From positions 1 through 64,000 of IMG/VR virus record IMGVR_UViG_3300023199_000204: a DNA stretch of 64,000 nt. One strand, written 5' to 3'. The notes under the pieces are model-generated. The model had not been told where the DNA came from. It saw only the letters and a list, made by a program, of their open reading frames with translations, and did no database searches. Below are positions 1,366-18,589 of the stretch, one piece after another. Position 1 is the stretch's first letter, and every line of letters starts with the position of its first letter. The translations under genes were made by a program, and so were the position numbers. Source of the stretch: a virus.

Positions 1366-1830
1366 ATGACAAGTCTAAAACCACAATATGTGGATGAAAT
1401 CGTAGCTTCTATGGCAGAAATGCTAGGGGACAAGGATTTTATGTCACTTCATAAAAAAGCAGCTTTGGAGAAAGTTGCCAAAAGTACTCAAGAATATCTA
1501 TCAGCATATCAGGCAGCACAATCGCTAAATGAGGTTGAAACAATTCATAATGAGGTTCAGGCAACTAGAGGGTCTAGATCTCAGCAAGAGGAAGAGGCTC
1601 TTCATAATGCTTATCAGAGTGCGAAATCTCGTTTCTCTCCTGGTGAGAAACCAGTTCCTATTATGAGTGATGATGGTCAAGCGGCTGATGACGGAAAAGA
1701 GAATGTAGCAGCTGACTTTGCTCTTAAAAATCTTTCTGAAGTAGCTGACGCACTTGATAGCAACGGTTTTGAACATCTTGCTAATTTTATTGATGAGGCA
1801 ATGACAAAAATAGCTTCAAAAAAAAAATAA
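1366..1830 (+). CDS. helical protein ending in the LAD hairpin motif
   Basis: 154 residues, with GGAGG upstream of the ATG. The body is predicted helical, with a Q/E-rich coil around residues 55-90. The last 35 residues hold a motif found in several neighbours: ADALD, then G, then FIDEAMTKIA, fitting the pattern LAxxLDxxGxxxAAxxVD. The frame ends in a run of ten A bases (1818-1827) directly followed by TAA. A coherent 77-codon continuation lies in the -1 frame, so part of the product may be extended by frameshifting. No enzyme motif is visible. Its place upstream of the capsid gene suggests a head-assembly or internal head protein, by inference. Confidence 0.7.
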   Translation: MTSLKPQYVDEIVASMAEMLGDKDFMSLHKKAALEKVAKSTQEYLSAYQAAQSLNEVETIHNEVQATRGSRSQQEEEALHNAYQSAKSRFSPGEKPVPIMSDDGQAADDGKENVAADFALKNLSEVADALDSNGFEHLANFIDEAMTKIASKKK

Positions 1831-2060
1831 CAAAGTCTAAAGATGGCAAGCCTGGAAAATATAAAAACACAGGCGGTGCTCACCCACCACCCAAAAAGTG
1901 GTGGGACAAGATGTCTAAAGAGATTAAAAAAAATAATAAAGATTACTCTAAAGAGAGAATAAGAGAGACCGTGGGTGATATTTGGTATAATAAACTTAGT
2001 AATTCTAAGCGTTCTGAAATATATAAACGTCACGGAAAAAGCAAAAGCCCTAACAGGTAA
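1827..2060 (+). CDS. -1 frame continuation of the preceding gene (possible frameshift product)
   Basis: This frame has no start codon or ribosome binding site of its own near its 5' end, yet encodes a basic, gene-like sequence (KPGKYKNTGG, then KKWWDKM, then many K/R and aromatic residues) up to TAA at 2058-2060. It is entered by a -1 slip on the run of ten A bases at 1818-1827, which contains the A AAA AAA type of slippery heptamer. Either this is programmed -1 frameshifting, giving a long form of the 154-residue protein with a basic tail, or one A has been lost and the gene is broken. The neighbour at 18458 has the same architecture: motif, A-run, frame change. Confidence 0.5.
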   Translation: MTKSKDGKPGKYKNTGGAHPPPKKWWDKMSKEIKKNNKDYSKERIRETVGDIWYNKLSNSKRSEIYKRHGKSKSPNR

Positions 2061-2072
2061 GGGAGCATAACA

Positions 2073-2591
2073 GTGGTTCTTAAATATAGCGAAAAAAATA
2101 ACAATACTCTTGCTAATGCTATGGCAAGGGCTTTAAATGAAGATTTTGAAAAATTGGCAAAAACCAAATGTAAATGCGGCTGTTTTAACTGCTCTTGCGG
2201 CAAAGCCAAAAATAATGGAAAATGTCCTTGTAATTGTAAATCTTGTAAAAAAACAAAAGTGGCAGAGTTGGAAGATATATCTTATACTATTTTAAGATCA
2301 GCTGACTTATTAGACAAGGTTGGACACTATGATGCTGCTTTAAGTTTATCATATGCTTTAAAGAAATTGGCAGAGAATGGATGTAATTGCCCTGACTGTC
2401 CTGATGAAATTGAGGATATAGACTCAAAAGAAGATTTAGTATATGTAATAAGCAAGGCTTTATTTGATATTTCAGATACTTTAGATAAGCTTGGACACTT
2501 TGATGTTTCAGATAATGTTGATACTGCTCTTAAATCACTATCCGGAAAGAAATGTGATTGCGGGGGATCTTGTTGTAACGGCAACTCTTAA
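2073..2591 (+). CDS. cysteine-rich protein with two LAD hairpin motifs
   Basis: 172 residues from a GTG preceded by GGGAG. The N-terminus contains NEDFEKLAK (residues 22-30), matching the short N-terminal helix of other proteins here. Then come nine cysteines in residues 33-58 spaced CxC, CxxC and CxC, two helical hairpin motifs (about 73-100 and 130-157), three cysteines at 104-109 and four at 161-168. The 16 cysteines look metal-binding, in metallothionein or zinc-cluster style. Arranging metal clusters around helical hairpins is unusual, and I know of no named family. It lies among head-region genes. A role as an internal or metal-binding virion protein is inference. Confidence 0.7.
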   Translation: MVLKYSEKNNNTLANAMARALNEDFEKLAKTKCKCGCFNCSCGKAKNNGKCPCNCKSCKKTKVAELEDISYTILRSADLLDKVGHYDAALSLSYALKKLAENGCNCPDCPDEIEDIDSKEDLVYVISKALFDISDTLDKLGHFDVSDNVDTALKSLSGKKCDCGGSCCNGNS

Positions 2592-2602
2592 TAGGGGAGT
2601 TT

Positions 2603-3403
2603 ATGTCTAATATTAGCAAGTATATGGAAAATATAAAACTAGATGTTATTAAACTATATACTAAAGATAATTTAAGTTATAATGCTATAGCTAAAAAATT
2701 TAATGTAAGCCAACCCAGTATTAAAAAATATTTAATTAATTGGGGAGTTAAACAAAAACCAGTCTATGAACAAATGAGTTATGTATTACACGATAGACAA
2801 AAAGATGATAGGTGTTTTCCAAAAAATATTCTTAATTTATTAGAAGGTGGTTTGCTTGGTGATGGTGGAGTTTATAATACCAAACTTCAATCTTATTATC
2901 AGCACGGATGTATTAACAAAGATTATATAGATTTTTTAAAAACATATTTTAATAACAATGAAATTATAGCAAACATTTGCTCTATTGCCCCAAAAGGCAA
3001 AAGTGTTAAAAGATTTTATTGTCTAACAACCAGAAGTAGTTTATTTTTAAGGAATATTAGGAATAAGTGGTATAAAGGCAGTATTAAGATAGTTCCAGAA
3101 GATTTTGAATTATGTCCTTTATCATTAAAGCATTGGTGGATAGGTGATGGATATTTAAACCCTGATTGGGGATGGGCTACTATTGCTACGCAAAGTTTTA
3201 CAGAAAAAGAGAATATGTTTTTAAAAAATAAATTAAATAATATTACTGAACATTATATAACCTTACGTCCAAGTGGTAAAGCAGCTCCAGGTAAATTTCA
3301 TCTATATTTATCAAGAAAAGCAATAAATGATCTAATTAATTATATGGGAAGTTGTCCTGTAAAATCGTTTAAATACAAATGGAAGGTTAAAAATGGTATT
3401 TGA
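2603..3403 (+). CDS. LAGLIDADG homing endonuclease
   Basis: 266 residues, ATG preceded by GGGGAG. The N-terminus carries a helix-turn-helix (about residues 22-45: SYNAIAKKFNVSQPSIKKYL). Two LAGLIDADG helices follow, LEGGLLGDGG near residue 81 and HWWIGDGY near 173, both ending in the acidic residue that coordinates the catalytic metal. The two copies indicate a monomeric, pseudo-symmetric nuclease. Such enzymes cut a long specific site and drive copying of their own gene into phages lacking it. The gene is inserted between the Cys-rich gene and a decoration-like gene; its last codons overlap the next start and contain a GGAAGG that can serve it. Confidence 0.9.
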   Translation: MSNISKYMENIKLDVIKLYTKDNLSYNAIAKKFNVSQPSIKKYLINWGVKQKPVYEQMSYVLHDRQKDDRCFPKNILNLLEGGLLGDGGVYNTKLQSYYQHGCINKDYIDFLKTYFNNNEIIANICSIAPKGKSVKRFYCLTTRSSLFLRNIRNKWYKGSIKIVPEDFELCPLSLKHWWIGDGYLNPDWGWATIATQSFTEKENMFLKNKLNNITEHYITLRPSGKAAPGKFHLYLSRKAINDLINYMGSCPVKSFKYKWKVKNGI

Positions 3404-4088
3404 AATAATACAATCAGGAAATGCTTTACCATTTTTCTATAAACTGGATCCAACTGCTACATTTGAATCAGGGCAAATTGGTCAGCTTAAGCTTATAGGA
3501 AATGATATAGTTGTAGGATTATCTGACGGAACAGCTCCTTTGGGTATTATTGATGATGTAAGAACTACAGCTTTTTCGCAACCTGTTGCCGATGAAGTTG
3601 TAATTATTCAGGGAATAGATATTACTACAGACGGCTATAATACTTACAACGGAAGAGATTCCATAGGTCCACTAGATAATTCCCCAGTTATTGGGTCAAG
3701 CTTTACTTCAGATTATCCAGATGTATCTTTAATCACAACCAATGGAAATTTAATTTTACCAGCCGGGGCAGAGCTTAATTATGATGCCGATGGAGATGGA
3801 ATAAAAGAATCTGTAAGAATGACAGTTAGTTATGTTTATCATGTGGCTGATTTACCTGGTGGAGATACTACATTAGGAAGTGGAAAAGTCACTATTTGGT
3901 TTCAAAGAGGAATTTTTGCTACGGATCAGTATGATACTACTGCCAAATATCCTTTAAACGCAGTATTATTTGTTAATTCTGAAGGAAAGCTTACCACAAG
4001 TCAAACCACTCCTGAACATCCAGGAGTTGCGATGGTTACAGGTCCTCCGGGAGCTACGATAAACACTTTAGAGTTCCTATGGCTATAA
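3393..4088 (+). CDS. decoration-like head protein, paralogue of 11062-11703
   Basis: 231 residues, starting inside the end of the endonuclease gene. The sequence is beta-rich and glycine-rich without membrane segments. It shares with the protein at 11062-11703 an N-terminal QSGN element, the segment GKVTxWxxxG, and GKLT about 40 residues later. It ends VTGPPGATINTLEFLWL. Small beta proteins of this kind next to the major capsid gene are usually capsid decoration or vertex proteins. The assignment rests on context and paralogy, not on a recognised family. It contains one DGY triplet. Confidence 0.6.
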   Translation: MVFEIIQSGNALPFFYKLDPTATFESGQIGQLKLIGNDIVVGLSDGTAPLGIIDDVRTTAFSQPVADEVVIIQGIDITTDGYNTYNGRDSIGPLDNSPVIGSSFTSDYPDVSLITTNGNLILPAGAELNYDADGDGIKESVRMTVSYVYHVADLPGGDTTLGSGKVTIWFQRGIFATDQYDTTAKYPLNAVLFVNSEGKLTTSQTTPEHPGVAMVTGPPGATINTLEFLWL

Positions 4089-5152
4089 ATAATTATTCTT
4101 TAAATGCTAAAAGTCCAAAATGGACTAAAGAAGAAATTGAAAAATTAAAATCTGTTTATAGAGATTACACTTATAAAGATCTAAGTATTATTTTTGATAG
4201 AAGTGTAGAGGCAATTTCACAAAAACTTAGTAGTCTTGGTTATAGTAAATATAATAAATGGACTGAAGAGGAAATAAACTTACTTAAAAAAAAATATAAT
4301 ACAAGTTCTACTGAACAGCTTATAATATTGTTTCCTGCTCATACTTTAGGAAGTATTAATAAAAAGGCAGAAAAATATAATTTAAAACGTCAAAATATAA
4401 AAAGACCAAAATGGACAGATGATGAAATTGGCACCATCCAAATAATGTATGAAAAAGGGTTTTCAGTTTCAGAAATTTCAAAAAAAATTAATAGAAGTGA
4501 AATAGTAGTAAATATTGAAATTGGTTCTTATAAAGCAAAACTTAAGAAATGGACAGCACAAGAAGAAAAAATATTATTAGATAATTATAAAACTTTATCT
4601 TATAAAGAAATTTCAAATCTTCTATCTAACAAAAGTTTAAGTCAAGTTAAAAAGTATGGTAAAAAGCTTAATCTTAACAAAATTGATCCAAGAGGTGTTT
4701 GGACGGCTGAGGAAGAAAAACTTTTAATTGAAAAATATTCTATTTCAACTATAGAAGAGCTTATGAATATTTTTAAAAACAAAGCTAAGTCTCAAATATC
4801 TAAAAAAGCAAAGCATTTGAGATTAAGAAAAACTAAGAAGACATTATCTAGATGTTTTAGAACAAAAATAGATAATTATAATGATATAGTTAAAATTTAC
4901 ACTTCTTCGCGGCAACGTTGGCGTAAAATAGTTTTAAAAAGAGATAATTATACTTGTGTTGATTGTAATTTAAAAGACATTACTGGTTTAATATTACAAA
5001 TTCATCATATTATTCCTGTAAGAAGTTGTAGTAGTAAAGAACAGATTATAGATATTAAAAATGGTATTACTCTGTGTATAGATTGTCATAATAAAGTGAC
5101 AGGTAGAGAGTATAAATTTATAGAAAAGTATCAAAACTTAGTTGAGTTATAA
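4079..5152 (+). CDS. HNH homing endonuclease with five Myb/SANT-like repeats
   Basis: 357 residues, starting in the stop region of the upstream gene (10-base overlap). Five helix-turn-helix units each begin with a W-T-x-E/D-E motif, near residues 14, 61, 112, 159 and 209, in the manner of Myb/SANT DNA-binding repeats, and would read a long target. The C-terminus is an HNH nuclease: CVDC near residue 292, IHHIIPV with the catalytic histidine pair, and LCIDCHNK with the zinc ligands and third histidine. All key residues are present, so it should be active. It is free-standing, not inside an intron. Confidence 0.88.
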   Translation: MAINNYSLNAKSPKWTKEEIEKLKSVYRDYTYKDLSIIFDRSVEAISQKLSSLGYSKYNKWTEEEINLLKKKYNTSSTEQLIILFPAHTLGSINKKAEKYNLKRQNIKRPKWTDDEIGTIQIMYEKGFSVSEISKKINRSEIVVNIEIGSYKAKLKKWTAQEEKILLDNYKTLSYKEISNLLSNKSLSQVKKYGKKLNLNKIDPRGVWTAEEEKLLIEKYSISTIEELMNIFKNKAKSQISKKAKHLRLRKTKKTLSRCFRTKIDNYNDIVKIYTSSRQRWRKIVLKRDNYTCVDCNLKDITGLILQIHHIIPVRSCSSKEQIIDIKNGITLCIDCHNKVTGREYKFIEKYQNLVEL

Positions 5153-5167
5153 GCCTAGGAGGAATAA

Positions 5168-5569
5168 ATGTCTTTTTCAAAAGAAGATAAAGCTGCTTGG
5201 AACAACAGCGAAATAATGCAGGAGTTTGAAAAAATTGCTGCGGAAATGGAAATTTTTAATGGACCTCCTGAGGAGGCATATCTTCCAATCAAAAATGCTG
5301 ATGACGATTGGGAAGATGAAATTAATGATGATGTTGAAAACAAAAATATTGAAGCGGAAAATAAGAAAGAGGATTTTTTAAAAATAGCAGAATTTGAAAA
5401 AAACTTGCTAGAAAAAAAGAAAACAGTAGATGATAAATTAATCAATGATTTGCGAACCTTGTCCGAAAAATTAATTTCAAAAAGAAAAATTGAGGCAGCA
5501 TATAAAGTGGAGAGGGCCATTTTAGATATTGAGGCACATCTTCAGACGGAGGAAAATAATGACATTTAA
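5168..5569 (+). CDS. small acidic protein with N-terminal tag and LAD-like hairpin
   Basis: 133 residues, GGAGG upstream. Residues 14-26 read SEIMQEFEKIAAE, one of the clearest copies of the short N-terminal helix found in several neighbouring proteins. The middle is acidic (DDDWEDEINDD) and has a second FLKIAEFEK. Residues 91-121 form a divergent copy of the helical hairpin (LSEKL, then EAAYKVERAI) that lacks the usual D and G. It overlaps the next gene by 11 bases, implying coupled translation and a shared pathway. No catalytic motif is visible. I infer a small internal head protein or cargo adaptor. Confidence 0.7.
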   Translation: MSFSKEDKAAWNNSEIMQEFEKIAAEMEIFNGPPEEAYLPIKNADDDWEDEINDDVENKNIEAENKKEDFLKIAEFEKNLLEKKKTVDDKLINDLRTLSEKLISKRKIEAAYKVERAILDIEAHLQTEENNDI

Positions 5570-8500
5570 TTATAGTGGAACAAGTGTTATGGAAGAATTG
5601 GAGAAAATTGCTATAGAAAAAAAATGGCTAACTGTAGAGGCAGGTCCAGACGCAGGTTTAATTAAATCAATTCAGCAGCAAATGAATGAGTTGGTTGGAA
5701 GATTACATAAACCAATGCCTCCTCAATATAATGTATTTCCTCTTGATGTTGATGGTGTTTTTGGACCAAAATCGACAAAAGGTATTAGAGGAATTATGCT
5801 TGTTGCCCAAGATGCTGTTAAAAACACTCCTAATAGACATATGCCTCAACACAGAGAGTTAATTACTGGTATAAGTGAAATGAGCAGGGGGACTCCAGAC
5901 GCTCTTTTAACTGGTCTTAAATATTTAAATAAATATTTTTATGAGAATTGGGGAGAGAAAATTAAACAAAAGGAGCCTCAAATTAAACTTCCTGAATGGG
6001 CAAAAAATAAGCCAGCACCAGTGGGAGATGGAACTGATGAGCCAGACTGGGAGGCACCTGCCGATGATGAAAAAAAATCTTGTTTACATAGCGAAGAGTG
6101 TCCACCAGGTCAGCGTTGTTATCAAGGATATTGCGAAGAATATATGGAAGAAAGCCCAATTAAAGGGGCGTCAAATAAAACTAACTTGGAGAAAATTGCT
6201 ATGAATCCTCGCGAATGGTTTAACAGCTTAGACTACAACACTCAGAGCAGAGTGAGAAGAAAAGTATATGAATTAATGAAAGGAAGAGGTTTTGATCAGG
6301 AAGGGGCTCTTGGAATGGTAATGAGACAAATGAATCCTCCTGAACCAAAACAAAAGCCTCCTCTTAAACAAGAGTGGCCTGATACGCCTGATTTTAATCC
6401 AGATGATTTTTTACGAGAAGTGGAAAGGGGTGTTCAGGAACAATATCCTTCTTTTAAAATGACCTCTTCTGTTATAAACAGTTTGGTTTCTCTTGCCAAT
6501 GATTTAGATGATATGGGAGCAAAAGAGGCTTCTTTTTCTGTTGATAATCAAATTAAGATATATAAAGAAGCTCTTGATAAGCTTTATGATGTAACTGGAG
6601 AAACTGGAGAGCAACTTATTGAAAAAGCACATCCCGGCGGAGGTCCAACAATTGCTCCTTCAAAAGAAGAGGGTGGCAAAGTTGAGACAGTTGTTGAGGA
6701 GCAGAAAAAATCAATTGACAAGGCGACCAAAAAGCCAACTGGAAAATATGCTCAAACAGTGTCAAAACTAATTGCTTTGGCAAATAAGCTTGAAGATGAA
6801 GGGAATGTTAAAGCCGCATTACAAGTGGATGAGTCAATACGGGAAATGAGGGCCTTGCTCCCTTTTTCAAATAGGAGTTCAGTAATTGAGGCAGCTGGCT
6901 CCGAGGACAAAAAAGCCTCGGTTGTTAAGAAAGGTTTTAGTCTTACGGAGACATTGGAAACAGATATAAATGATTATGCTATAGTTCTTGGAATAATGTA
7001 TAAACTGAATCAAGAGCAAAGACCATTGTATTCAGGAGCTTATAAAAACCTTAAAAACCTTTTGTTGAAATATTTATCTAAAGCTAAATATTATGAAAAT
7101 TATTCAAAACAAAGTAATGCCAAAAACTATCACCAATTAATTATATACTATAATAATTTAGAACGGTTTACTAAAAAAATTGTTGATAATTCTGGGACTA
7201 TGTCAGATATGGGAATGTTTTCTATAAGATTAGCATCTCATTTAAGAAGTATTCAAGAAGGGTTAGTTTATCTTGGGAAAGCTATGGATTCATTTGATTA
7301 TACTACTTCACCAAAAAAAGCTCTTGAGCCTCTTTCTGGAAATTCAAGACAAAGGGCAATAAAATCTTATTTAAAAGATCTTAAAACACTAGAAAATTTA
7401 ATACAAACTCAAGATCCAGTAAAAGTTGGTAAAATTTTAAATGGCGGTCTCAAGGCTATAGACCAGCTAGAGAAATGGATTGAAAAAAGAAGATATAATC
7501 TTACAGTTACTGATGGAAACGATAGTTATATTGGTGATAAACTTGAATTGCCTCATATTACACAGTTAAGAAATTATATTTCTAAGTTACAGAAGGGTTT
7601 AGGAAAAACTTCTGGAATAAAGTTTTATAAATTTGTCAAAACTGCTCTTGATGGCGCACCACCAGTTGGCATTGGAGGCGGATCTGCCACTCCACGAAGA
7701 AGAACAAGAAGTGTTGTTAATAGGAAGCCAAAAGACCAACAAGTGGTTAAATTACAGAGGGCTCTTAAAAAAGCAAATTTTGATACTGGCAAAATAGATG
7801 GATATTGGGGAAAAAACACTGCTGCGGCTTTTAACGCAATGCTGGCAAAACTTGGGCAATCAAGGGGCAGAGCTTTCAAACAGTTTAGTGGTGATAAAAA
7901 ACCCAATCCAAAGGTTTTAAGATTTGGAATATATGCTGCCAATTTATATCAAAGAAAAGATATTCCAAAAGGAAGATTTTTTGTTCTTACTGATACTGGA
8001 GAAATAGATTTGCCATTATCTGCATTAAATAGTCCTTCTAGTTTTATTGGGGCTCTGGAACTAAATTCCGTTATAAGGAAAGATCTTTCGGCAGAGGAAA
8101 AGGTTAAAGCAGCCGAAAAAGTTTTAATATTTACTGCTAAGAAATTAAATCCTCCAGATAAAGCTCCATATGTTTTGGGCAGAGTTGAAGACTTAATGGA
8201 TCTAAGTTATATTGATAAAGCTAAAAATAATTTAAGGCTTTTGAATAAAGCATATGTTATGTTAAAACCGTTTGTCTTAAAAGTAAAAAACAAAGAAAAG
8301 GTTGATGAAAAATCTTTAAAACAGAATAAGTTAAAACCTTCTGTTAAAAGCCCTTCTGCTAAAAGAAGTGTTAAACAAAAATTAGAAAAAGCTATGTTAA
8401 AAATTATGCCTGAGCCTGGGCAACTAACAAGCCTTGAATCTTTTGAACGACTTGCTCAAGTAAATAATATGACTGCTAGAGAATATTATCCACTATTAAA

Positions 8501-8648
8501 AAGCAGAATTGTTGGTGTTATGAGATTTATGAAAAACAATAAATCACAGCTTGTTGCTGAGCTTGGTTCTGATGGATTTTTAGATAAGTGGTGGAAATTA
8601 GAAAGAGTAAGCCGTGATCTTGATAGGTTAAAAGCTGCTATCAGATAA
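5559..8648 (+). CDS. large multidomain protein with tag, LAD hairpins and PG-binding-like domains
   Basis: 1029 residues. An in-frame ATG lies 30 bases earlier, but GGAGG at 5549-5553 favours 5559. Parts in order: the N-terminal tag VMEELEKIAIE (10-20); a peptidoglycan-binding-like helical unit (about 35-75, with DVDGVFGPKS); a six-cysteine module (about 173-195, ECPPGQRC); hairpin motifs near 303-333 and 400-430; a long helical region; a second peptidoglycan-binding-like unit (about 727-765, KIDGYWGKNT); and a helical C-terminus. Size, wall-binding-like domains and position before the capsid gene suggest an internal virion protein ejected with the DNA, by inference. It shares the element LIEKAHP with the protein at 9590. 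Confidence 0.7.
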   Translation: MTFNYSGTSVMEELEKIAIEKKWLTVEAGPDAGLIKSIQQQMNELVGRLHKPMPPQYNVFPLDVDGVFGPKSTKGIRGIMLVAQDAVKNTPNRHMPQHRELITGISEMSRGTPDALLTGLKYLNKYFYENWGEKIKQKEPQIKLPEWAKNKPAPVGDGTDEPDWEAPADDEKKSCLHSEECPPGQRCYQGYCEEYMEESPIKGASNKTNLEKIAMNPREWFNSLDYNTQSRVRRKVYELMKGRGFDQEGALGMVMRQMNPPEPKQKPPLKQEWPDTPDFNPDDFLREVERGVQEQYPSFKMTSSVINSLVSLANDLDDMGAKEASFSVDNQIKIYKEALDKLYDVTGETGEQLIEKAHPGGGPTIAPSKEEGGKVETVVEEQKKSIDKATKKPTGKYAQTVSKLIALANKLEDEGNVKAALQVDESIREMRALLPFSNRSSVIEAAGSEDKKASVVKKGFSLTETLETDINDYAIVLGIMYKLNQEQRPLYSGAYKNLKNLLLKYLSKAKYYENYSKQSNAKNYHQLIIYYNNLERFTKKIVDNSGTMSDMGMFSIRLASHLRSIQEGLVYLGKAMDSFDYTTSPKKALEPLSGNSRQRAIKSYLKDLKTLENLIQTQDPVKVGKILNGGLKAIDQLEKWIEKRRYNLTVTDGNDSYIGDKLELPHITQLRNYISKLQKGLGKTSGIKFYKFVKTALDGAPPVGIGGGSATPRRRTRSVVNRKPKDQQVVKLQRALKKANFDTGKIDGYWGKNTAAAFNAMLAKLGQSRGRAFKQFSGDKKPNPKVLRFGIYAANLYQRKDIPKGRFFVLTDTGEIDLPLSALNSPSSFIGALELNSVIRKDLSAEEKVKAAEKVLIFTAKKLNPPDKAPYVLGRVEDLMDLSYIDKAKNNLRLLNKAYVMLKPFVLKVKNKEKVDEKSLKQNKLKPSVKSPSAKRSVKQKLEKAMLKIMPEPGQLTSLESFERLAQVNNMTAREYYPLLKSRIVGVMRFMKNNKSQLVAELGSDGFLDKWWKLERVSRDLDRLKAAIR

Positions 8649-8663: not shown

Positions 8664-9593
8664 ATGATGACACTTTCTCTACGAGAGGAACGACAACTGT
8701 TGCCACTGTTGGTTAAAGAAGCCGCCATACCTGAATTTCTTGGCGGCTTTTTAAAAACAATAAAAGATAAGACATCATTTCTGTCAAAACCTTTTGAGAG
8801 TTTTTTGGGAACAGTTGGAATTATTGTTGTTGGCAGAATAAGCAAAATTCTGGGATTTCTGGCTTTAATTGGCGAATATTACGGCTTTGGATTAAGTTCT
8901 ATTGGAAAAATGATAGATACTTCTTTAGGATTTAATACCGGGAAACCAAAAATATCTTTATCTGATATAAAAAAAACAGCAAAAGGTGTTATTGACACCA
9001 TTGCTAAAAAAATTGGTTTAAAAGAGGCGGAATTTAAAAACGAATATCTTTTATCAAAGCGGGCAGGGCTTGGAACATTTTTGGGACAAATTTTTAGAGC
9101 AAAGAGATTAAGTTTTGTTAGTATTTTATATGGTTTTATAAGAACATTTGTTAAAGGTTTAATTGCTGCTGGGCTTATTGGTGGTTTAGCTTCTATGACT
9201 GGTCAAAGACCAGCGCCTCCAGTGGGCGGGAAGTCAAAAAGTCTTACAGGGAAATTACAATACTATAAAAATGTTTCTAACAATGTTGAAGATACTTTAA
9301 TAAAATTCCTAAACGCAGAAATAGCAAACTTTTCAAGAGCCTTCGAAGCACAAAAGGGGAGACCATTAAAAGGCTCTTCTGAATTACAAAAAGTATTATA
9401 TAATATAGAAATATTAAATTATGGGAAAAATATTTCTGATTTAAATTTAAGAGATGCTTTTATTGGTCCAGATGTTAAAACTTTGGCAAAAAAGATTTTA
9501 CCAAAAGTTAATTATCAGCCTTTAGCTTCTTCTTCTTCTACAAAAAAAACAAAAGAACTTTTAAAACTTTTAAACGAGGTGAAAAAAAAATGA
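8664..9593 (+). CDS. putative membrane-active protein, unknown family
   Basis: 309 residues, GGTGGGAG upstream; a second ATG follows immediately. Two hydrophobic stretches (about residues 48-75 and 150-180, the latter glycine- and alanine-rich, ending in GGLASMTGQ) could span or insert into a membrane. The C-terminal 110 residues are helical and lysine-rich. It ends four bases into the next start codon (ATGA overlap), so the two are translated together. It lies between two proteins carrying the N-terminal tag but has no clear tag itself. A role in membrane passage of DNA is possible; I do not recognise the family. Confidence 0.6.
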   Translation: MMTLSLREERQLLPLLVKEAAIPEFLGGFLKTIKDKTSFLSKPFESFLGTVGIIVVGRISKILGFLALIGEYYGFGLSSIGKMIDTSLGFNTGKPKISLSDIKKTAKGVIDTIAKKIGLKEAEFKNEYLLSKRAGLGTFLGQIFRAKRLSFVSILYGFIRTFVKGLIAAGLIGGLASMTGQRPAPPVGGKSKSLTGKLQYYKNVSNNVEDTLIKFLNAEIANFSRAFEAQKGRPLKGSSELQKVLYNIEILNYGKNISDLNLRDAFIGPDVKTLAKKILPKVNYQPLASSSSTKKTKELLKLLNEVKKK

Positions 9594-10963
9594 CCGGACA
9601 ATGGCACGGTAGTGATGTTATGGCTGGCTTTGCCAAAATAGCTGCCGAATCTGGGCTCATTACCTCAGATTTTAATCCGGATAATAAAGATTTCCTTGGA
9701 AATCCAAGTGAAAAAACTCCGGTGAAAGATAAAACAAGGTATGAGCCAACAGAAGATTATAATAATAGATATAATAAAGAGGGTGAAAAGCTTATAGATA
9801 AAGCACATCCTAAAAATGTGGAAGTGGCCGACGCGATGGGCAAAGGTGGTCTCGTTGAAAACGAGAACCAGAGGCAAGAAAAAGATATTGAAGTGGCAAC
9901 AAGAATGCCAAGTGGAGCATTATTTGGAATTCACGCAGATTTAATTAATGATTTGGTAAAACTTGCTAACAAGCTAGATGATGTTGGAAATTATAAAGCA
10001 GCAAGTTTAGTTGATAAAACCATTAGGGAGGTTCGCGGTCTCCCTTTTGATAAAGGCCACTCCATACAGAAAGAAGCAGCTCTATTTGGTCTTGTAGCAC
10101 TAGTTGCTGGTTTAGCACTTCCTTGGATTGCGACAAAACTAAAATTTAGATCTCCTTATGCTAGAAAATCAGGATTAACAGGAAAGCTTGGTTGGATAAG
10201 TGCTGGTGTAGGACTACTTAACCTATTTGGATCTAAACTTACAAGTATCAAAGAAAATCTAAATACTGATTTACAAGATTTATATGATGTTTTGGAAAAA
10301 CTAGATACACCCTCTTCAAAAAAAGCTATAATGATATTAAAGCCACATTTAAATAAGTTTTCAAAAATTAATTTAAGCACAAAAGAGGGTGCGGCCCAGT
10401 TTTTAAATAACTTTCATAAACTAAGTCAGGCTTATCCACAGGTAGAGGCATTAATTAATAATATTATTATTGAATATCAAAGTAATTGGTTTGATAAGTT
10501 AAAAGGATATGTTGGAATGGATGTATTATCCAGATTTAAGGAAAAATATTCAGATTTTAAGACAACATATAAAGAGACACAAGCTTTGGTTAATAAAACT
10601 TTAAAGGTCGGTGGAAAATTAAACCGCAAAGCTATCTCTCTAGGGGGAGCAGCTTCTGGGACCAAACCTTTTTCTCCTAAAGTTATAAGTGATAAACCAA
10701 TTTACAGACTACAGAGATTATTATTTGAAAGTGGATTTAGAGGAAAGAAATGGGAAGGAAAAATTAGTGGAGAATTGGATCAGGCTACTGTAACTGCTGC
10801 CAAAGAACTGGAAAGTCTTTTAAACGCAGCAATGTCGAAAATGCTTAAAAAGAATAATAAAGACCCAGATTTTTTCAACAACTCTATTATAAAAGATGGA
10901 AAGTTAGTAGGCAATGTTAATTCTTTATATAAAGTTATTCAAATTGCTGAAAATATATCATAA
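9590..10963 (+). CDS. tagged virion protein with LAD hairpin, membrane segment and PG-binding-like domain
   Basis: 457 residues, starting in the ATGA overlap with the upstream gene, whose end supplies a purine-rich ribosome binding region. The N-terminal tag reads SDVMAGFAKIAAE (8-20). LIDKAHP near residue 65 matches the 5559 protein. The hairpin motif is near 117-147 (LANKLDDVG, then AASLVD). A hydrophobic segment at about 166-184 (LVALVAGLALPW) looks membrane-spanning. A peptidoglycan-binding-like unit lies near 368-405. It looks like a shorter relative of the 5559 protein with the same module order, consistent with a set of internal or ejected virion proteins. Function is inferred from architecture only. 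Confidence 0.7.
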   Translation: MTGQWHGSDVMAGFAKIAAESGLITSDFNPDNKDFLGNPSEKTPVKDKTRYEPTEDYNNRYNKEGEKLIDKAHPKNVEVADAMGKGGLVENENQRQEKDIEVATRMPSGALFGIHADLINDLVKLANKLDDVGNYKAASLVDKTIREVRGLPFDKGHSIQKEAALFGLVALVAGLALPWIATKLKFRSPYARKSGLTGKLGWISAGVGLLNLFGSKLTSIKENLNTDLQDLYDVLEKLDTPSSKKAIMILKPHLNKFSKINLSTKEGAAQFLNNFHKLSQAYPQVEALINNIIIEYQSNWFDKLKGYVGMDVLSRFKEKYSDFKTTYKETQALVNKTLKVGGKLNRKAISLGGAASGTKPFSPKVISDKPIYRLQRLLFESGFRGKKWEGKISGELDQATVTAAKELESLLNAAMSKMLKKNNKDPDFFNNSIIKDGKLVGNVNSLYKVIQIAENIS

Positions 10964-11790: not shown

Positions 11791-12822
11791 ATGTCTTTAT
11801 TTAGTACACATGGAAAGGGAGGCGAGCTTAATGTTGGTTCAACTCGCGATGCCCTTCAACAAATTGTAAAATATGCAACTATTTTAGAAGATTTGCAGCC
11901 AGCAAATACTGCTTTGGCTCAGAGACCCTCATTTTCTGATCAACAGAGAGATGAGCTAGTAAAAAGAGCACTTTTAACCACAGAGGGCAAAATTGCTTTA
12001 GGTCAGGCAATGGCTAACCCCATTAGAAAGAACCTTGATTATCAAGGGGTAGGAAGAAGAGTTCTTGTTGTAGACCCGTTACCACAGGGAGCACTCCCAG
12101 TTTACGAGCGTGACATTGATGTTGCTGCTACTGTTGTTTCAAGCAATGGTTCAGCACCTGAGAGTCGCGTATTCGGTGACAGGGTAACTATTCCTGAGTT
12201 TGAAGTTGTTTCAAACCCGACAGTAAGAATTGCTGAAGTTCGCAGACGTAGATTCAACGTCATTGACCGTGCCCAGCAGAAAGCTCGCCAAGAAATCCAG
12301 GCTCAAGAGGATGCCAACATCTTCTCAGCTCTTGATTTCGCAGCTGACTCAACTCTTGGTGGTGAAAACACTGCTCAGGACATTGCGGACGCTGGTCTTC
12401 TAAAGCGCGACCTTTCTGAAATTAAGGTTCAGGTTGATCGTTGGGACCTTGTAACCACAAAATTCCTTATGAATATCGTTGAATACAATGATATCCTAAA
12501 CTGGGCAACTGGTGGCGGACAAGGAACTGGTGGTGGCGAGGTTGATCCTGTCACTATGCGTGAAATCCTACAGACTGGTCTTTATGCCCATCTTTGGGGT
12601 GCTGACATCATCGTTTCAAAGGTTGTTCCTCAGGGAACTGTCTTCGGTGTTGCCGATCCTGAGTTTATTGGTGTAATGCCTGTAAGACAGGATATTGAAG
12701 TACTTCCTGCAGACGAGCCTAAACAGTTAAAACTTGGCTGGGTAGTAAACGAAATTATTGGTGTTGGCATTGTCAACTCCCGTGGTTGTGCTGTTGGTCG
12801 TAAATCAGTAGCTGTTGGCTAA
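11791..12822 (+). CDS. major capsid protein (HK97 fold expected)
   Basis: 343 residues, AGGAGG upstream. The N-terminal arm is followed by a region with LVVDPLPQGALPVYERD, a positively charged segment (EVRRRRFNVIDRAQQKA) and a long helix, then a C-terminal part ending VGRKSVAVG. Length, layout, placement after a decoration gene and before a strong terminator, and codon use biased toward C-ending codons all fit a major capsid protein forming the icosahedral shell. No separate protease or delta domain is visible in this frame. Family assignment is by pattern recognition, not by a search. Confidence 0.85.
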   Translation: MSLFSTHGKGGELNVGSTRDALQQIVKYATILEDLQPANTALAQRPSFSDQQRDELVKRALLTTEGKIALGQAMANPIRKNLDYQGVGRRVLVVDPLPQGALPVYERDIDVAATVVSSNGSAPESRVFGDRVTIPEFEVVSNPTVRIAEVRRRRFNVIDRAQQKARQEIQAQEDANIFSALDFAADSTLGGENTAQDIADAGLLKRDLSEIKVQVDRWDLVTTKFLMNIVEYNDILNWATGGGQGTGGGEVDPVTMREILQTGLYAHLWGADIIVSKVVPQGTVFGVADPEFIGVMPVRQDIEVLPADEPKQLKLGWVVNEIIGVGIVNSRGCAVGRKSVAVG

Positions 12823-12933: not shown

Positions 12934-13899
12934 ATGGGGAAAAGATTATTTACGAAAAGGGAATTATTAAGAAAATTGGTGGAATTTTCTAAAAAGGTAA
13001 ATAAGAGTAGAATTTCAAAAACCGATTTAGACAAAGATAAAGCATTTCCATCTTCGGCAACATATAAGAGATATTTTGGTAGTTGGAGCAATGCTTTAAA
13101 GTTAGCTAAATTAAAATCTGGAATAATTACTGGAAGACCACAGGATAAGGAGATAATAATTCCAGACAAAGCGTTAGATATAATAAATGGAGAATTATTA
13201 GGTGATGGCTCAATGCCTTTAGGCGGGGAATATAAAAGCAATGCTTATTTTGAGCATTCAACAGCGAATATAGATTATGGAAAATATTTATATAATAAGC
13301 TTAAAAATTATGTTCCATTATTAAATTCCTCATATTGCCCTAAAAGAAATAAGAGATGTAATATTCAATTTAGAACAAGAAGTAGGGTTAATATTGCTTG
13401 GACTAAAATTAGAAACAAATGGTATATTAATGGAAAAAAAATAATACCAAATGATTTAATTCTCACAAAAGAGGTTTGTCTTCATTGGTATTTAGGTGAC
13501 GGATACAGTGAGGATAAGACTTGTAAATTTTCTACTTGTGGATTTACTAAAAAAGAGAACGAAAAATTATGCGAACTATTGTTAAACATTGGCTTTAAAT
13601 CAAACATTAATAAAAGAAGCGGTGGTTATTATATTATAAGAATGAGAAGAAGCAGTTCATTTAAATTTTTAGATTGGTTAGGTCCTTGTCCAGCGAAAGG
13701 ATATGAGCATAGATGGAATATTGGAGAAAAATCCAAGTTATTAACTAAAAAAGATTTAGAAACAGCATTTAAGAAATTTAATAAATCGGTTACAAGAAAA
13801 GAGTTTGATGCTGATAAAGATGTTCCTTCGTCTATAACAGCTATTAGATTATTTGGAAGTTGGAATAAGGCAAAGGAATTTTATTATGAAAATAAGTGA
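12934..13899 (+). CDS. LAGLIDADG homing endonuclease flanked by HE-associated repeats
   Basis: 321 residues from the ATG at 12934, which follows AGGAGG; upstream in-frame starts lie in the terminator. The N-terminal 55 residues form a homing-endonuclease-associated helical repeat (PF18780 type, ending TYKRYFGSWSNAL). Two LAGLIDADG motifs follow, INGELLGDGS and LHWYLGDGY, both with the catalytic acid. A second associated repeat sits at the C-terminus (IRLFGSWNKAK). The gene should be active. It lies just past the capsid terminator, so the capsid gene or its 3' flank is the likely target. It overlaps the decayed gene downstream by 14 bases. Confidence 0.88.
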   Translation: MGKRLFTKRELLRKLVEFSKKVNKSRISKTDLDKDKAFPSSATYKRYFGSWSNALKLAKLKSGIITGRPQDKEIIIPDKALDIINGELLGDGSMPLGGEYKSNAYFEHSTANIDYGKYLYNKLKNYVPLLNSSYCPKRNKRCNIQFRTRSRVNIAWTKIRNKWYINGKKIIPNDLILTKEVCLHWYLGDGYSEDKTCKFSTCGFTKKENEKLCELLLNIGFKSNINKRSGGYYIIRMRRSSSFKFLDWLGPCPAKGYEHRWNIGEKSKLLTKKDLETAFKKFNKSVTRKEFDADKDVPSSITAIRLFGSWNKAKEFYYENK

Positions 13900-15024
13900 T
13901 AAGGAATTGATGTTAGACCTAATGAGGGTTAAAAACATTGTTAATAAAATTCCAAGTCAAGCAGATTATATAAAATATGGAAAATATTCCAAAAACACTT
14001 ATATTTCACGAAAACCCTGGTCTAAATGGAACGAGAGTTTGTTTTTATTTTCTAACACCAACAATCTTAATGAAGTTAAAAAGATATCAAATGATGATTT
14101 AATATCTAATTTAAAAAAGCTATATATTAAATTAGGTCGTGTTCCCAAAAAAGACGATTTAAGGATAAGTGAAGGTTCATTATATAGTATGAATGCTTAT
14201 CGCAGGGCATTTGGAGATTTGGCGACAGCTCTAACTTCTGCTAATTTAAAACCAAATTAAATAAAAGGGATTCAAAAGGATGAAATAATAAAAGATATTA
14301 AAAATGTATATTCTTCTTTGGGCACAACACCAAGTTTTAGAATATAGGAAGCTTTCAAAAATAGGATATAGTTTTCCAACAATAAGAGAAAGGTTTGGAT
14401 CTTGGACCAAAGCTTTAATTGCGTCAGGCATCCCAATAATAAACGCAGGAAAAGCTAATAAAGAGTTTATTCTTATTGAGCTAAATAAATGGTATAATAA
14501 AAATAATAATGATGTTAATTGCTTATCTTATTGGACTTTAAGGAAGGCAAAAGCTGCCCGAGAATTTATATTCAGCCCTAGAACAATTAAAAATAATTTT
14601 GATGGAATGTCTTGGGAAGATATAATGAAGAAAATAGATATTAATTATGAAACTCAAGACCCGTTTGTTAAAAAAATATTGTTATATTGGAAAAGATAAT
14701 AATATATATGTTTCTTTGCTTGAATTAAAGACAGGTAATCATTTATTTTATCTAGTAAATAATAACAAGATAAAAGATTACGAATATGAAGCAAAAGTTT
14801 GTAAAGAAAAAAGCTGGACCTGTGATTTTTTAATATTTTGTAATTCTGGAAATAAGGTTTGGTTGGAAATTGACGGAATGAGAAAAAATAGAAAATATCC
14901 ATATTTATTAGGAGAAAATAACAAAATTGAATATTATAAAATTAACAATTTTGATTATGCTATTTTATCTTATAATAACAGGGATTTAATAAAATCTATT
15001 AATTCACTTTTAGGAGTAATATGA
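13886..15024 (+). pseudogene. decayed HE-repeat nuclease (stop plus two frameshifts)
   Basis: Three frames read in order make one protein. 13886-14260 encodes two HE-associated repeats (ending YRRAFGDLATAL) and stops at TAA. The same frame continues coherently to about 14335, with a repeat start reading DEIIKDIKNVYSSLGTTPS. A +1 change within TTTT near 14335 leads to YRKLSKIGYSF and IRERFGSW (to 14699). Another +1 change in seven A bases near 14666 leads to the C-terminal nuclease-like part, with CDFLIF, then VWLEIDGMRKN, a likely PD-(D/E)XK or Vsr-like core. Removing one T and one A restores a single frame except for the TAA at 14258. The gene looks dead in this genome. Confidence 0.75.
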
Positions 15025-15773
15025 CTTTTATAGACAGATATAGTTGGAAATGCTTACTTGGTCCTCAATCAAAAGACATTAAAGAAAATAAATTACTATC
15101 AACTTGGAGGGTTAGAAATAAAACTCATATAGTTTTATTTGAGCCGTTAGAGGATACTAATATATTAGAGAACTATATTCCATTAAGTTTTTATTATATT
15201 GAATTAGAAGATTTAAATAAAATAAAAAAAGTATATAAGGTAAAATCTACGAAAGTAAATACTACCTGTATAGATTTAACAAAAATAGATGATTTGAAAA
15301 AAAGAAAATATAAAAGTTTGAGAAGAAAAATTAATTCTTGTAAAGAGTATAATTTAGAAATATTAGATGATTATAAATCCATAAATGATTTATATGAGAT
15401 GATTAAGATATGGAATGCTGATAGTGGTGATAAATATTTTAGGAATTTCTCTGGTAAAAACAAATATTTTTATTCTTCTGGGTTTCACAAAGATTGTATT
15501 AATTCATTTTGTTATGATAAGGGTAAATTAGTAGCATTTGGGTCTTTATCTCCAAATAATAATGGAAATTCATCATTTATAATTGGAAAAGCATTAAATT
15601 ACAAATATAACGGTTTATCTGAATTTTTAGATTTTTCATTATATAAGAAAGCTATAAGGCAAGGAGTTAAAGTAGTTAACCTCGGGGCAAGTTATTCCAC
15701 TGGAATTAAAAACTATAAAAATAAGTGGTTTGGTTCATTTGAAAAGTTTTGTTATGAAGGAAAGATATTATGA
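15021..15773 (+). CDS. GNAT/DUF2156-like acyltransferase-fold protein
   Basis: 250 residues, starting in an ATGA overlap with the decayed nuclease frame. The C-terminal half reads like the GNAT or FemAB-type acyltransferase fold: LVAFGSLSP, then a strand and a Gly-Lys-rich turn (IIGKALNYKYNGLSEF), then VVNLGASYSTGIKNYKNKW, a layout seen in DUF2156 and lysyl-transferase C-terminal domains. The N-terminus has K-R-rich helices (KSLRRKINSCKE). The substrate is unknown. It is coupled to a DNA methyltransferase fusion downstream, which raises the possibility of a base-modification role (Mu Mom also has a GNAT-like fold), but that is speculation. It could instead be simple accessory cargo. Confidence 0.55.
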   Translation: MTFIDRYSWKCLLGPQSKDIKENKLLSTWRVRNKTHIVLFEPLEDTNILENYIPLSFYYIELEDLNKIKKVYKVKSTKVNTTCIDLTKIDDLKKRKYKSLRRKINSCKEYNLEILDDYKSINDLYEMIKIWNADSGDKYFRNFSGKNKYFYSSGFHKDCINSFCYDKGKLVAFGSLSPNNNGNSSFIIGKALNYKYNGLSEFLDFSLYKKAIRQGVKVVNLGASYSTGIKNYKNKWFGSFEKFCYEGKIL

Positions 15774-15841
15774 GCGACTTTAATAAAAAATGTAGCTGTT
15801 GTGGAGATTTTTATAATACAAGGGGAAGTAAAGGCAAGTGA
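15770..15841 (+). CDS. 23-residue Cys peptide coupled to the methyltransferase fusion
   Basis: ATG overlaps the upstream TGA (ATGA) and the frame ends at TGA 15839-15841, which overlaps the next GTG start (GTGA). The peptide reads MSDFNKKCSCCGDFYNTRG, then SKGK, with a CxCC zinc-knuckle-like cluster. Either it is a tiny coupled peptide or it is the true N-terminus of the following 837-residue protein, cut off by a one-base change. No slippery run precedes the stop. Confidence 0.4.
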   Translation: MSDFNKKCSCCGDFYNTRGSKGK

Positions 15842-18351
15842 GAAAAAAAACAACGGCTGAGTTTATAAGCGATGCGATAAAAGTTCATAAAGGTAAATAT
15901 GATTATAGTAAAACAAATTATATTTCATGTAAAAATAAAGTGGAAATAATTTGCTCTATTCACGGAGAGTTTTTTCAAACAGCGAGCGACCATCTATCAG
16001 GGCATGGTTGTAAAAAATGTAAATTCGATAAATTAAATAAATTAAGAAAGGTAAATTTAAAAGAATTTCTTGAAAGAGCAAGAAAATCTCATAACAATTT
16101 TTATGATTATTCTCTAATAGAGAAAATATATGATTGTAATAATGATAAGTTAAAAATTATATGTCCCATACACAGAATATTTTATCAAACGGCATCTTCA
16201 CATATGTCAGGAATAGGATGTAAAGAATGCTATTATGATAATGTTAGAAAAAATCCTCCAAATCCTACTATTACTTTTGATGAATTTTTAGAAAGAGCAA
16301 AAAAGATATTTAGAAATAAATATAAGTATAAAAACTATGAAAATATTTCTTCAAAAATAACAATAATTTGTCCTATACATGGAGAATATGAGCAATTACC
16401 ATATAGTCATTTAAAAAGTAAAGGATGTGTTAAATGTAGAGGAACTGTAAATAATCTTAAAGTATTTATTAGCAAGGCAAATAATATACATAATTTTAGA
16501 TATGATTATAGCAAATCAGCTTATTCTGGAAATGAAGAGTTAATAACAATAATTTGCCCTATACATGGTGAATTTGAACAGATAGCGAGAACTCATTTAA
16601 GTGGCTCAGGATGTAGATTTTGTTATGGAAAACGTAAAAAAACTACTAAAAAATTTATAAAAGAAGTAATGGAAGTTCATGGGAACAAATATGATTACAG
16701 TAAAGTAGATTATCAAAATTGGAAAACAAAAGTTAAAATAATATGCCCTACTCACGGAGAATTTTTCCAAAGGGCTCGACTTCATCTAAAAGGAGCTAAT
16801 TGTCCCAGATGTGCTAATTCTTTTAGAAAGACTACCAAAGAGTTTGTTAAAGAAGTAATGGAAGTTCATGGAAATACATATAATTATAGTAAAACAAAAT
16901 ATATAAATTCTTATACTAAAATAATAATTATATGTTCTACTCACGGAGAATTTAAACAGAACCCAAGAGTTCATTTAAGGGGATCAGGTTGTAGAATTTG
17001 TAATTTATTTAAGGTTTCTAAAATATCTCAAGATTGGCTTGATAATTTCAAAGGAATAGAAAAAGAGGTTCCTATTACCGTTGGTAAAAATAGATTTATA
17101 GTTGATGGATTTAATAAAAATACAAATACTATATATGAGTTTGATGGAGACTTTTGGCATGGAAATCCAGATGTTTTTAACCTTAATGATAAAAATAAAA
17201 CTGCCAAAATGACTTTTAAAAAGCTTAATGAAAAGACATTAAGAAAAAGAAATGTCTTAATTAATGCTGGTTATAATCTTTTATATATATGGGAAAATGA
17301 TTGGAATAAAATTAAAGGAAGTAAAATGGAAAAATATAATAACGCAATTGAAGTGGATGGAAATAAATTAACAAAAAAATATATAGAGAGTTTAGATGAC
17401 AAACAAAGAGAAAAATTAATAGCCCCTATTTTTCATTATTTTAGAATTAATGGCTTTCAATATCCCGATGATGAGAATAAAATAAAAAAAGATTATAAAA
17501 GGCTTAAAGAAAAAGAATTTGATAAAAATATTACTGAATTATATAATAACGCAAGTTTAGCTACTTATATTTGTAAATATTTTTGTAAAAGTTTTTATAA
17601 AACTACAAGTAGAGGAAAACCACATATGATTGATGTTTTTAATGATGATAAATTATTAAGAAAAGTTATTAAAAATAGATTGGGTTTAAATTGGTATAAA
17701 CAAAAAGGAGAAGATGATGTAGAGGCTTTTACGATTTCATTTAAGCAAATAATCCAAGGAATTCGTTCTAGTAGGCTAGTTCCTATGATTTCTATGTTTA
17801 AGCCTAGCATCGCAAAGTTCATATATCAAAAATATAGTAATTATGGAGATACTATTCTAGATTACTCTGCTGGTTTTGGCGGAAGAATGCTTGGTGCTTC
17901 TGTTTTAGATAGAAGATATATCGGAATAGATCCACTAACTTCTTTTGAAATTAATGATATTATCAAATATCTTCAAATTGAAAACTGTTATTTAATAAAA
18001 GGCATTTCTGAAGAAATATATTTAAAGCATAATTCCATAGATCTATCTTTTTCAAGCCCTCCTTACTATGATCTTGAATATTATTCTAACGATAATACTC
18101 AGGCATATAATAAAGGTGAGAATTATTTTTATAATGTATATTGGAGAAAAACATTAGAAAACTCCTATAAAATGCTTAAAAAGGGAAAAATTTTCGCTGT
18201 AAATGTAAAAGACCAGCCAAAAATGGTTGAAATGGCTGGTGATTTTTTCACATATAAGGAAAAAATTGGCTTGAGAACCATAAGATCTCATCTGAACAAA
18301 AAAAATATAGATCCTACCAAATATGAATATATCTACATATTCGAAAAATAA
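15838..18351 (+). CDS. zinc-finger/Vsr-like endonuclease fused to DNA methyltransferase
   Basis: 837 residues from a GTG. Six treble-clef repeats of the DUF723 type fill residues 3-386, each with YDYS, then IICxxHGEF, then GCxxC. A Vsr/EDxHD-like nuclease domain follows (about 390-495: VDGF, then YEFDGDFWHGNP, then GYNLLYIWENDW), with its acidic residues intact. From about 505 to the end is a class I methyltransferase of the FKPSIAK type: ILDYSAGFGGR (SAM motif I, near 674) and SFSSPPYYD (motif IV SPPY, near 739), as in N4-cytosine or N6-adenine DNA methylases. One chain thus joins sequence recognition, cutting and base methylation. It is coupled to the upstream genes and ends the accessory island. 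Confidence 0.82.
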   Translation: MRKKTTAEFISDAIKVHKGKYDYSKTNYISCKNKVEIICSIHGEFFQTASDHLSGHGCKKCKFDKLNKLRKVNLKEFLERARKSHNNFYDYSLIEKIYDCNNDKLKIICPIHRIFYQTASSHMSGIGCKECYYDNVRKNPPNPTITFDEFLERAKKIFRNKYKYKNYENISSKITIICPIHGEYEQLPYSHLKSKGCVKCRGTVNNLKVFISKANNIHNFRYDYSKSAYSGNEELITIICPIHGEFEQIARTHLSGSGCRFCYGKRKKTTKKFIKEVMEVHGNKYDYSKVDYQNWKTKVKIICPTHGEFFQRARLHLKGANCPRCANSFRKTTKEFVKEVMEVHGNTYNYSKTKYINSYTKIIIICSTHGEFKQNPRVHLRGSGCRICNLFKVSKISQDWLDNFKGIEKEVPITVGKNRFIVDGFNKNTNTIYEFDGDFWHGNPDVFNLNDKNKTAKMTFKKLNEKTLRKRNVLINAGYNLLYIWENDWNKIKGSKMEKYNNAIEVDGNKLTKKYIESLDDKQREKLIAPIFHYFRINGFQYPDDENKIKKDYKRLKEKEFDKNITELYNNASLATYICKYFCKSFYKTTSRGKPHMIDVFNDDKLLRKVIKNRLGLNWYKQKGEDDVEAFTISFKQIIQGIRSSRLVPMISMFKPSIAKFIYQKYSNYGDTILDYSAGFGGRMLGASVLDRRYIGIDPLTSFEINDIIKYLQIENCYLIKGISEEIYLKHNSIDLSFSSPPYYDLEYYSNDNTQAYNKGENYFYNVYWRKTLENSYKMLKKGKIFAVNVKDQPKMVEMAGDFFTYKEKIGLRTIRSHLNKKNIDPTKYEYIYIFEK

Positions 18352-18457
18352 CCCACCCCGCCTAAATCTACCTACCAATCACTTATCCATTATCTTTTCT
18401 TTCCAAATATACTAATTAATAACAATTACTAATAGATAGTTATTTCGGAGGAAAAAG
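18352..18457 (+). promoter_or_regulatory. almost G-free leader before the LAD-motif gene
   Basis: This 106-base gap begins with a C-rich stretch (CCCACCCCGCC) and contains only one G in its first 80 or so bases. It carries AATTACTAAT at 18424-18433 and an AATAAC/GTTATT inverted repeat, then CGGAGG just before the ATG. A pyrimidine-rich, unstructured leader after the accessory island may mark where the original gene order resumes. No clear promoter is visible. Confidence 0.3.
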
Positions 18458-18589
18458 ATGTCTAAAAAGATTAAAAACCTTATTATGTTGGCGGACTCTC
18501 TTGATAAAGAAGGGAAGTTTGCTGATGCTGATTATATTGATAATTTAATTCACTCCTTTGCGGCAAAAAGTCCGCCAAAAAAAATATAA
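18458..18589 (+). CDS. 43-residue protein consisting of one LAD hairpin motif
   Basis: ATG with GGAGG upstream. Nearly the whole peptide is one copy of the helical hairpin seen in the head-region proteins: LADSLDKEGKFADADYID at residues 11-28, then LIHSFAAKSPPKKI. The frame ends just after eight A bases (about 18577-18584). In the +1 frame a DUF6582-like sequence continues without a start of its own, so this is probably the N-terminal part of a longer protein, reached by frameshifting or before a one-base gain. It is the clearest sign that the motif is a separable module. Confidence 0.65.
   Translation: MSKKIKNLIMLADSLDKEGKFADADYIDNLIHSFAAKSPPKKI

Follow-up and report, generated by a model that had tools for sequence, protein, structure and literature searches.

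A module of 30 residues, predicted to fold as a two-helix hairpin and with the consensus LvkLAdxLDxxGxxxeADxvDxiI, is present in eight copies in six genes (1366-18589) of the window, which covers the initial 64 kb of an IMG/VR virus record of 316,473 bases. The repeated motif is real and, in the searches made, it is restricted to phages of one kind, namely relatives of Bacillus phage G that are giant and for the most part uncultured. The module is undescribed; no published description of it was found in the open-licence literature. We propose, giving it slightly less than an even chance, that the hairpin is a docking tag that would recruit proteins to the virion during assembly, probably to the prohead interior.

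Hairpin copies and their specificity

A first-pass annotation of this DNA had claimed eight copies, all of which were located. Leave-one-out profiles searched against the six-frame ORFs of the window recovered six of them (E 0.0024 to 3e-9); used alone, these profiles did not recover the copies of genes 1366 and 5168 among the same ORFs, and both are supported through their orthologues. For gene 1366, orthologous copies exist in loci L017, L004, and L002; for gene 5168, a profile built from ten orthologues aligns with that of the hairpin in 30 of 33 columns (hhalign, P 7e-7). The copies are as follows:

1717..1815, + strand: C-terminal hairpin copy of gene 1366-1830 (profile A2, whole record, E 1e-11, A2 including this very copy; orthologous copies in L002, L004, and L017)
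2274..2375, + strand: hairpin copy 1 of gene 2073-2591 (leave-one-out E 0.0024; whole-record profile match)
2448..2543, + strand: hairpin copy 2 of gene 2073-2591 (leave-one-out E 1e-4; whole-record profile match)
5447..5545, + strand: C-terminal hairpin copy of gene 5168-5569, divergent (A6, the orthologue profile, compared with A5, the hairpin profile: P 7e-7)
6468..6569, + strand: hairpin copy 1 of gene 5559-8648 (leave-one-out E 0.001; whole-record profile match)
6756..6851, + strand: hairpin copy 2 of gene 5559-8648 (leave-one-out E 1e-5; whole-record profile match)
9938..10036, + strand: hairpin copy of gene 9590-10963 (leave-one-out E 3e-9; whole-record profile match)
18470..18562, + strand: hairpin copy making up most of the 43-residue ORF 18458-18589 (leave-one-out E 4.5e-6; AlphaFold2 model with two helices)

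In gene 5559-8648, the second hairpin lies about 96 residues past the first one, and the same spacing is found in five orthologues. Searching the whole record with a profile gave seven copies, all within 1.7-18.6 kb of the 316 kb, the divergent 5168 copy not being detected. One should bear in mind that the record is probably a fragment: profile searches for the terminase and portal families that its relatives carry found no match in it, and the ORF at which, or inside which, it begins is similar to the C-terminal part of a protease fusion. Copy counts drawn from the record are probably lower bounds.

Among 2,492 viral proteins, the profile search found 208 hairpin domains at E<1e-3, a number that is not an unbiased frequency because the viral loci were partly picked for containing copies. 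Block-shuffled or reversed versions of those 2,492 proteins gave no hairpin match at E<0.1, and 566 cellular proteins gave none at E<0.01; these controls are evidence of specificity, not of prevalence. We also searched a degenerate DNA pattern of the hairpin in 257 billion bases of cellular genomes and in viral contigs. The cellular genomes contained 61 pattern stretches, none of which held up by profile, the one match being weak (E 0.017); in viral contigs, 63 of the 64 stretches had profile matches. A tblastn search of the consensus hairpin against 50,697 phage records returned nothing convincing. The first-pass annotation had raised the danger that such a profile would hit helical proteins at random; this is excluded by the shuffled, reversed, and cellular controls, together with cellular loci that have no convincing match.

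AlphaFold2, given the 18458 product and 61 other copies, placed helices at residues 3-17 and 21-36 with a mean pLDDT of 88.5 (about 97 in the core), a model that supports the two-helix hairpin reading, as a prediction. Seven positions are at least 90% conserved across the 62 divergent copies, namely L8, A12, L15, D16, G19, A24, and D28. The hairpin itself had no significant Pfam or PHROG match in the proteins scanned, and Foldseek found nothing at E<=0.001 in the PDB or BFVD, as expected at 43 residues. PDB profile matches were mainly designed TPR and helical proteins, for which we rejected homology, the scores being weak or summed over repeats; no scaffolding protein was listed among these matches. 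The AlphaFold2 model of the two-hairpin segment of gene 5559, built from six sequences, has a pLDDT of 55 and is uninformative on the pairing of the hairpins. No conserved cleavage site was found in or after the hairpin.

The head block and a second N-terminal module

Five of the six tagged genes had been placed before the capsid gene, and the coordinates agree. Gene order is alike in close relatives and runs from the acidic C-terminal part of a protease fusion through 1366, 2073, a 231-residue protein, 5168, 5559, 8664, 9590, and a decoration-like protein to the capsid. The following features of this block are relevant here:

23..1117, + strand: acidic ORF truncated by the record start, like the C-terminal part of the protease fusion and a candidate docking partner (gene order and C-terminal end both similar)
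6606..6884, + strand: KAHP-hairpin region of gene 5559, common with gene 9590 (blastp 44%, 97 residues, E 4e-17)
9782..10066, + strand: KAHP-hairpin region of gene 9590, common with gene 5559 (blastp and profile comparison)
11791..12822, + strand: major capsid protein (phrog_2522, E 5e-76; phage G gp27, 53% identity, residues 48-317)

The counterpart of the acidic ORF in L087 (12302-16456) encodes 1385 residues, of which 132-229 form a head maturation protease domain; in relatives, the head maturation protease lies just upstream of the tagged genes, with terminase and portal nearby. We infer that the acidic part of the protease fusion may be a scaffold.

The tagged proteins had also been described as otherwise unrelated, which fails for 5559 and 9590. 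These two share 97 residues at 44% identity, align over 228 columns when compared as profiles (E 4e-27), start with the same N-terminal module (see below), and have a weak collinear match in a peptidoglycan-binding-like region (P 0.02); judging by these alignments, they are paralogues.

A second module, SEVMxEFxKIAxE (also SxVMxEFxKIAxE), starts proteins 5168, 5559, and 9590:

5204..5248, + strand: N-module SEIMQEFEKIAAE of gene 5168-5569, with A-A-E (N-module profile E 8e-8)
5580..5627, + strand: N-module SVMEELEKIAIE of gene 5559-8648, with A-I-E (N-module profile E 2e-7)
9608..9658, + strand: N-module SDVMAGFAKIAAE of gene 9590-10963, with A-A-E followed by S (N-module profile E 3e-7)

Among N-terminal segments, the N-module profile found 54 cases in 34 loci, a count that is descriptive because the profile was iterated on the same loci; internal control segments gave no match at E<0.01. 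As 5559 and 9590 are paralogous, the independent recurrence of the N-module is that between 5168 and the 5559/9590 pair. The SPN3US prohead protease cleaves after A-X-E, with S preferred next, and the N-terminal segments ending in A-x-E on head-block proteins, in a lineage with a head protease, are reminiscent of its propeptides (PMC10052503). They differ in that the site is putative and kept in about half of the distinct N-modules, the likeness being one of motif, and for this reason we regard the N-module A-x-E as a lead to a prohead-protease cleavage site. An N-terminal extension of the capsid protein was considered as a further bearer of the N-module and is unsupported (profile comparison, P 0.021). 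As a side observation, a short LxKxA-like motif is commoner at the N-terminus of untagged head-region proteins than internally (0.32 vs. 0.16), and is too degenerate to claim.

Spread among phages and modularity

We searched 80 loci around related capsid genes with an iterated profile and found 64 hairpin copies, 58 of them distinct, in 29 loci. In these capsid-flanking loci, 57 of the 58 copies are upstream of the capsid gene and on the same strand, the single downstream one being the 18458 copy. Copies also occur far from the capsid gene in other lineage members, many tagged genes lying tens of kb from the head genes, and there are up to 19 hairpin copies in one 223-kb relative. No copy was found in phage G, mycobacteriophage I3, Rhodococcus phage E3, or Erwinia phage pEa_SNUABM_2, nor in several large records with related capsid proteins (G008, G010); since phage G has a capsid protein 53% identical and no copy, the tag is not required for such heads. 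One terminase family is present in 16 and one portal family in 17 of the 27 tested records of tag-bearing contigs, and tag-bearing records without these families are often short. A single lineage for all tag-bearing phages is likely, not proven, because G020, in spite of being a 223-kb record, has no capsid, terminase, or portal match.

Single-linkage BLAST grouping (E 1e-10, 60% coverage) gave 98 tagged protein families, a threshold-dependent number that would fall with more sensitive clustering. The tag is N-terminal in 66 families, C-terminal in 11, and internal in 18, and three families have 60 residues or fewer. A separate domain can start after the tag, be it LysM, PilZ, LysM with a cell-wall hydrolase, an EF-hand, or a zinc ribbon; after the tag of L093:14730-15125, an 88-position family spans residues 43-130, and in L232:14148-14654 the tag precedes a hydrophobic, lipoprotein-like stretch. 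Recognised domains are few among the 93 tagged families scanned, and none belongs to a replication or nucleotide-metabolism family; their commonest theme is cell-wall-related (LysM, peptidoglycan-binding, hydrolase), which is a description from tagged proteins only, not an enrichment.

The first-pass annotation had called the hairpin a movable module. The 98 families and the domain boundaries right after the tag strongly bear out this part of the claim; the 43-residue gene, which had been taken as a nearly bare hairpin, is probably a longer protein with a broken frame. Indeed, ORF 18458 stops just past a run of eight A, and it is overlapped in another frame by a DUF6582 ORF whose sole listed start is a TTG within ORF 18458:

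18558..19019, + strand: out-of-frame continuation with the DUF6582 domain, probable body of the tagged protein (Pfam PF20223, E 2.9e-17)
18577..18584, + strand: A8 run, point at which the frame of the tag and that of DUF6582 diverge (sequence)

Probably, the 43-residue ORF encodes the N-terminal tag of one DUF6582 protein whose frame changed at the homopolymer, the simplest reading being a change at the A8 run that is either a sequencing or assembly error or real. No relative bearing the DUF6582 body of 18458 was found among the loci examined. Free-standing hairpins are essentially unproven, since another of the families of 60 residues or fewer, that of L214, is truncated at the edge of its locus and has 209 aa in L232, and since the copy of the window is probably frame-broken.

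Tagged small genes form arrays away from the head genes in relatives. In marine-type relatives, N-terminal tags on unrelated proteins have a similarity of 0.53 within vs. 0.43 between genomes (0 of 2000 shuffles), and of up to 0.74 within vs. 0.50 between genomes; this likeness fits partner co-evolution or recent copying, because label shuffling ignores genome relatedness and recent duplication. The window and its closest relatives have no within-genome tag likeness (0.25 within vs. 0.30 between for the window). From these comparisons, the core copies look old and fixed, and the accessory copies look recently exchanged.

A proposed docking role and its alternatives

As we picture it, the hairpin would bind a common phage-encoded partner during virion assembly, and this binding would bring otherwise different proteins into the particle, most likely the prohead. 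Within the pre-capsid block, a few structural proteins may have carried the hairpin for long as a fixed part, and three of these proteins also start with a helix that ends in A-x-E, a possible site for the prohead protease. In many relatives, small accessory proteins may have gained the hairpin at their N-terminus; these would travel inside the virion and might also enter the host. The likeliest partner would be the protease/scaffold-like polyprotein whose gene lies immediately upstream, with the capsid protein as the alternative.

Read from the genes and domains, a docking or packaging role, which the first-pass annotation had suggested for the head interior, fits the capsid block, the nearby head protease, the cell-wall domains, and the lack of replication enzymes among the recognised domains. 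It is supported by the 98 families, by domains starting right after the tag, by the placement in the capsid block, by A-x-E in all three N-modules of the window, and by alike tags in accessory arrays. Against it stand, most strongly, the tagged genes that lie far from head genes in relatives, and further the N-modules lacking A-x-E (about half of the distinct ones), the hairpin with its want of a conserved cleavage site, the core copies without within-genome likeness, and phage G, which has no copy. A broader version, somewhat unlikely in our estimation, would be a lineage-wide address system of phage-G-like giant phages, in which one folded hairpin directs about 10-20 different proteins of each genome to the virion, cell-wall enzymes and possible effectors aimed at the host among them; it would be a freely reusable loading tag of tailed phages.

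In phage T4, the capsid targeting sequence is a short peptide that lies at the N-terminus and is taken off by the head protease. For internal proteins, it is credited to Mullaney and Black (1996, as cited in PMC10052503). The hairpin is likewise a short segment common to different proteins near head genes, for which we propose prohead entry, and in the window it is accompanied by an N-terminal helix with a possible protease site. The 98 families carry such a segment on otherwise different proteins of one phage, and in 66 of the 98 it is N-terminal, the core copies of the window being internal or C-terminal. Unlike the T4 peptide, however, the hairpin would be a folded two-helix module that can sit at either end of a protein or inside it, it lacks a conserved cleavage site, and its role is proposed from sequence. 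P22-type scaffolding proteins have a helix-turn-helix coat-binding end, to which the C-terminal copies of the hairpin, with their proposed docking to a part of the head, are similar; here, many non-scaffold proteins bear the hairpin, and the likeness is one of description. A virion-targeting tag would be of a kind known from T4, and, if the proposed function is true, the novelty would lie in its being folded, independent of position, and widely reused.

Giant phages carry many internal proteins, and the choice of cargo is known in few models. If the hairpin is such a tag, virion cargo would become predictable from sequence in uncultured phages, candidate injected proteins would be flagged among otherwise unannotated genes, and a possible loading tag for protein delivery would become available. 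Even under another role, about 100 mostly unannotated families gain a common testable domain missed by Pfam and PHROG scans.

The main rival to docking is a general interaction hairpin, spread by duplication, that would form a four-helix bundle with another hairpin or bind assorted partners and would have no virion-specific meaning. It draws on the geometry of a single TPR-like hairpin, on the several proteins with two copies, and on the scattering of tagged genes in some genomes. The resemblance to TPR-like hairpins covers the two-helix geometry and some positions (LAxxLxxxGxxxxA), and designed TPR proteins weakly match the seed profile; the module differs in being a single unit, with one or two separated copies per protein and not a tandem array, in its conserved LD and D positions, and in having no significant fold match, and TPR family models had no match in Pfam scans of tagged proteins. 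Unlike common interaction repeats, moreover, the hairpin is found in phages of one kind and at no cellular loci, and its placement around the capsid gene is strong in the group of the window; we judge this rival unlikely.

The LysM, peptidoglycan-binding, and hydrolase domains of tagged proteins and of gene 5559 would also suit a virion tag for the tail or neck, loading cell-wall-active and other proteins on the injection apparatus and not the head. This we hold to be quite unlikely, as the core tagged genes follow the protease and precede the capsid gene, outside the tail block, which is downstream, and the window has no hairpin copy beyond 18589. Highly unlikely, in our view, is a localisation signal acting within the infected cell, for example at a replication or assembly site or a membrane, on proteins that are not packaged; small tagged genes in arrays away from head genes and the lipoprotein-like stretch of L232:14148-14654 speak for it, but hairpins are also part of head-block proteins. 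Ordinary paralogy or chance, i.e., duplication remnants or generic helices with no common function, is barely credible, for although 5559 and 9590 are paralogous and convergence is possible for short helical motifs, the shuffled and reversed controls gave no match and those seven columns stay at least 90% conserved over 62 divergent copies.

N-terminal sequences of head-region proteins

In this lineage, the major capsid protein is extended at its N-terminus by about 47 highly conserved residues (window 11791-11935), which include LNASxVxDALxQIVKYASI and precede the point where the match to gp27 of Bacillus phage G begins. Among the head-region proteins of the relatives that do not carry the two-helix hairpin tag, a hydrophobic-x-K/R-x-A pattern is commoner in the first 40 residues than internally (0.32 vs. 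0.16).

Sequences accompanying the hairpin tag

In one protein of a related viral locus (L232:14148-14654, − strand), a hydrophobic stretch lies directly behind the tag and ends in a lipobox-like GASGC; by its sequence, it looks as if a lipoprotein signal had been placed behind the tag. A further short segment, KIAADRNYRxxK, recurs near N-termini or behind tags, its carriers being small proteins in tagged arrays of other related loci:
L233:1010-1237
L096:1508-1864
L172:597-1370

In the window, the two-hairpin product of the gene at 2073-2591 is unusually rich in cysteine, with the stretches CKCGCFNCSCG, CPCNCKSC, and CDCGGSCC.

A probable frame change, possible insertions, and endonuclease-like ORFs

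At 18458-19019 of the window, a DUF6582 ORF overlaps the hairpin ORF in a different frame, the overlap lying around the A8 run; the two ORFs are probably a single protein with a frame change, be it erroneous or real. In four related records (G002, G027, G028, and G041), the open frames with portal matches are unusually long (937-1421 aa), and the match is in two pieces in the first three, a pattern as expected from inteins or insertions. Many ORFs resembling homing or HNH-type endonucleases, assigned by eye, are interspersed among the structural genes of the window.

Endonuclease-like ORFs of the window (by-eye reading)
Starts: 2603, 4079, 12883, 23090, 34251, 44098, 49114, 50090, 51498
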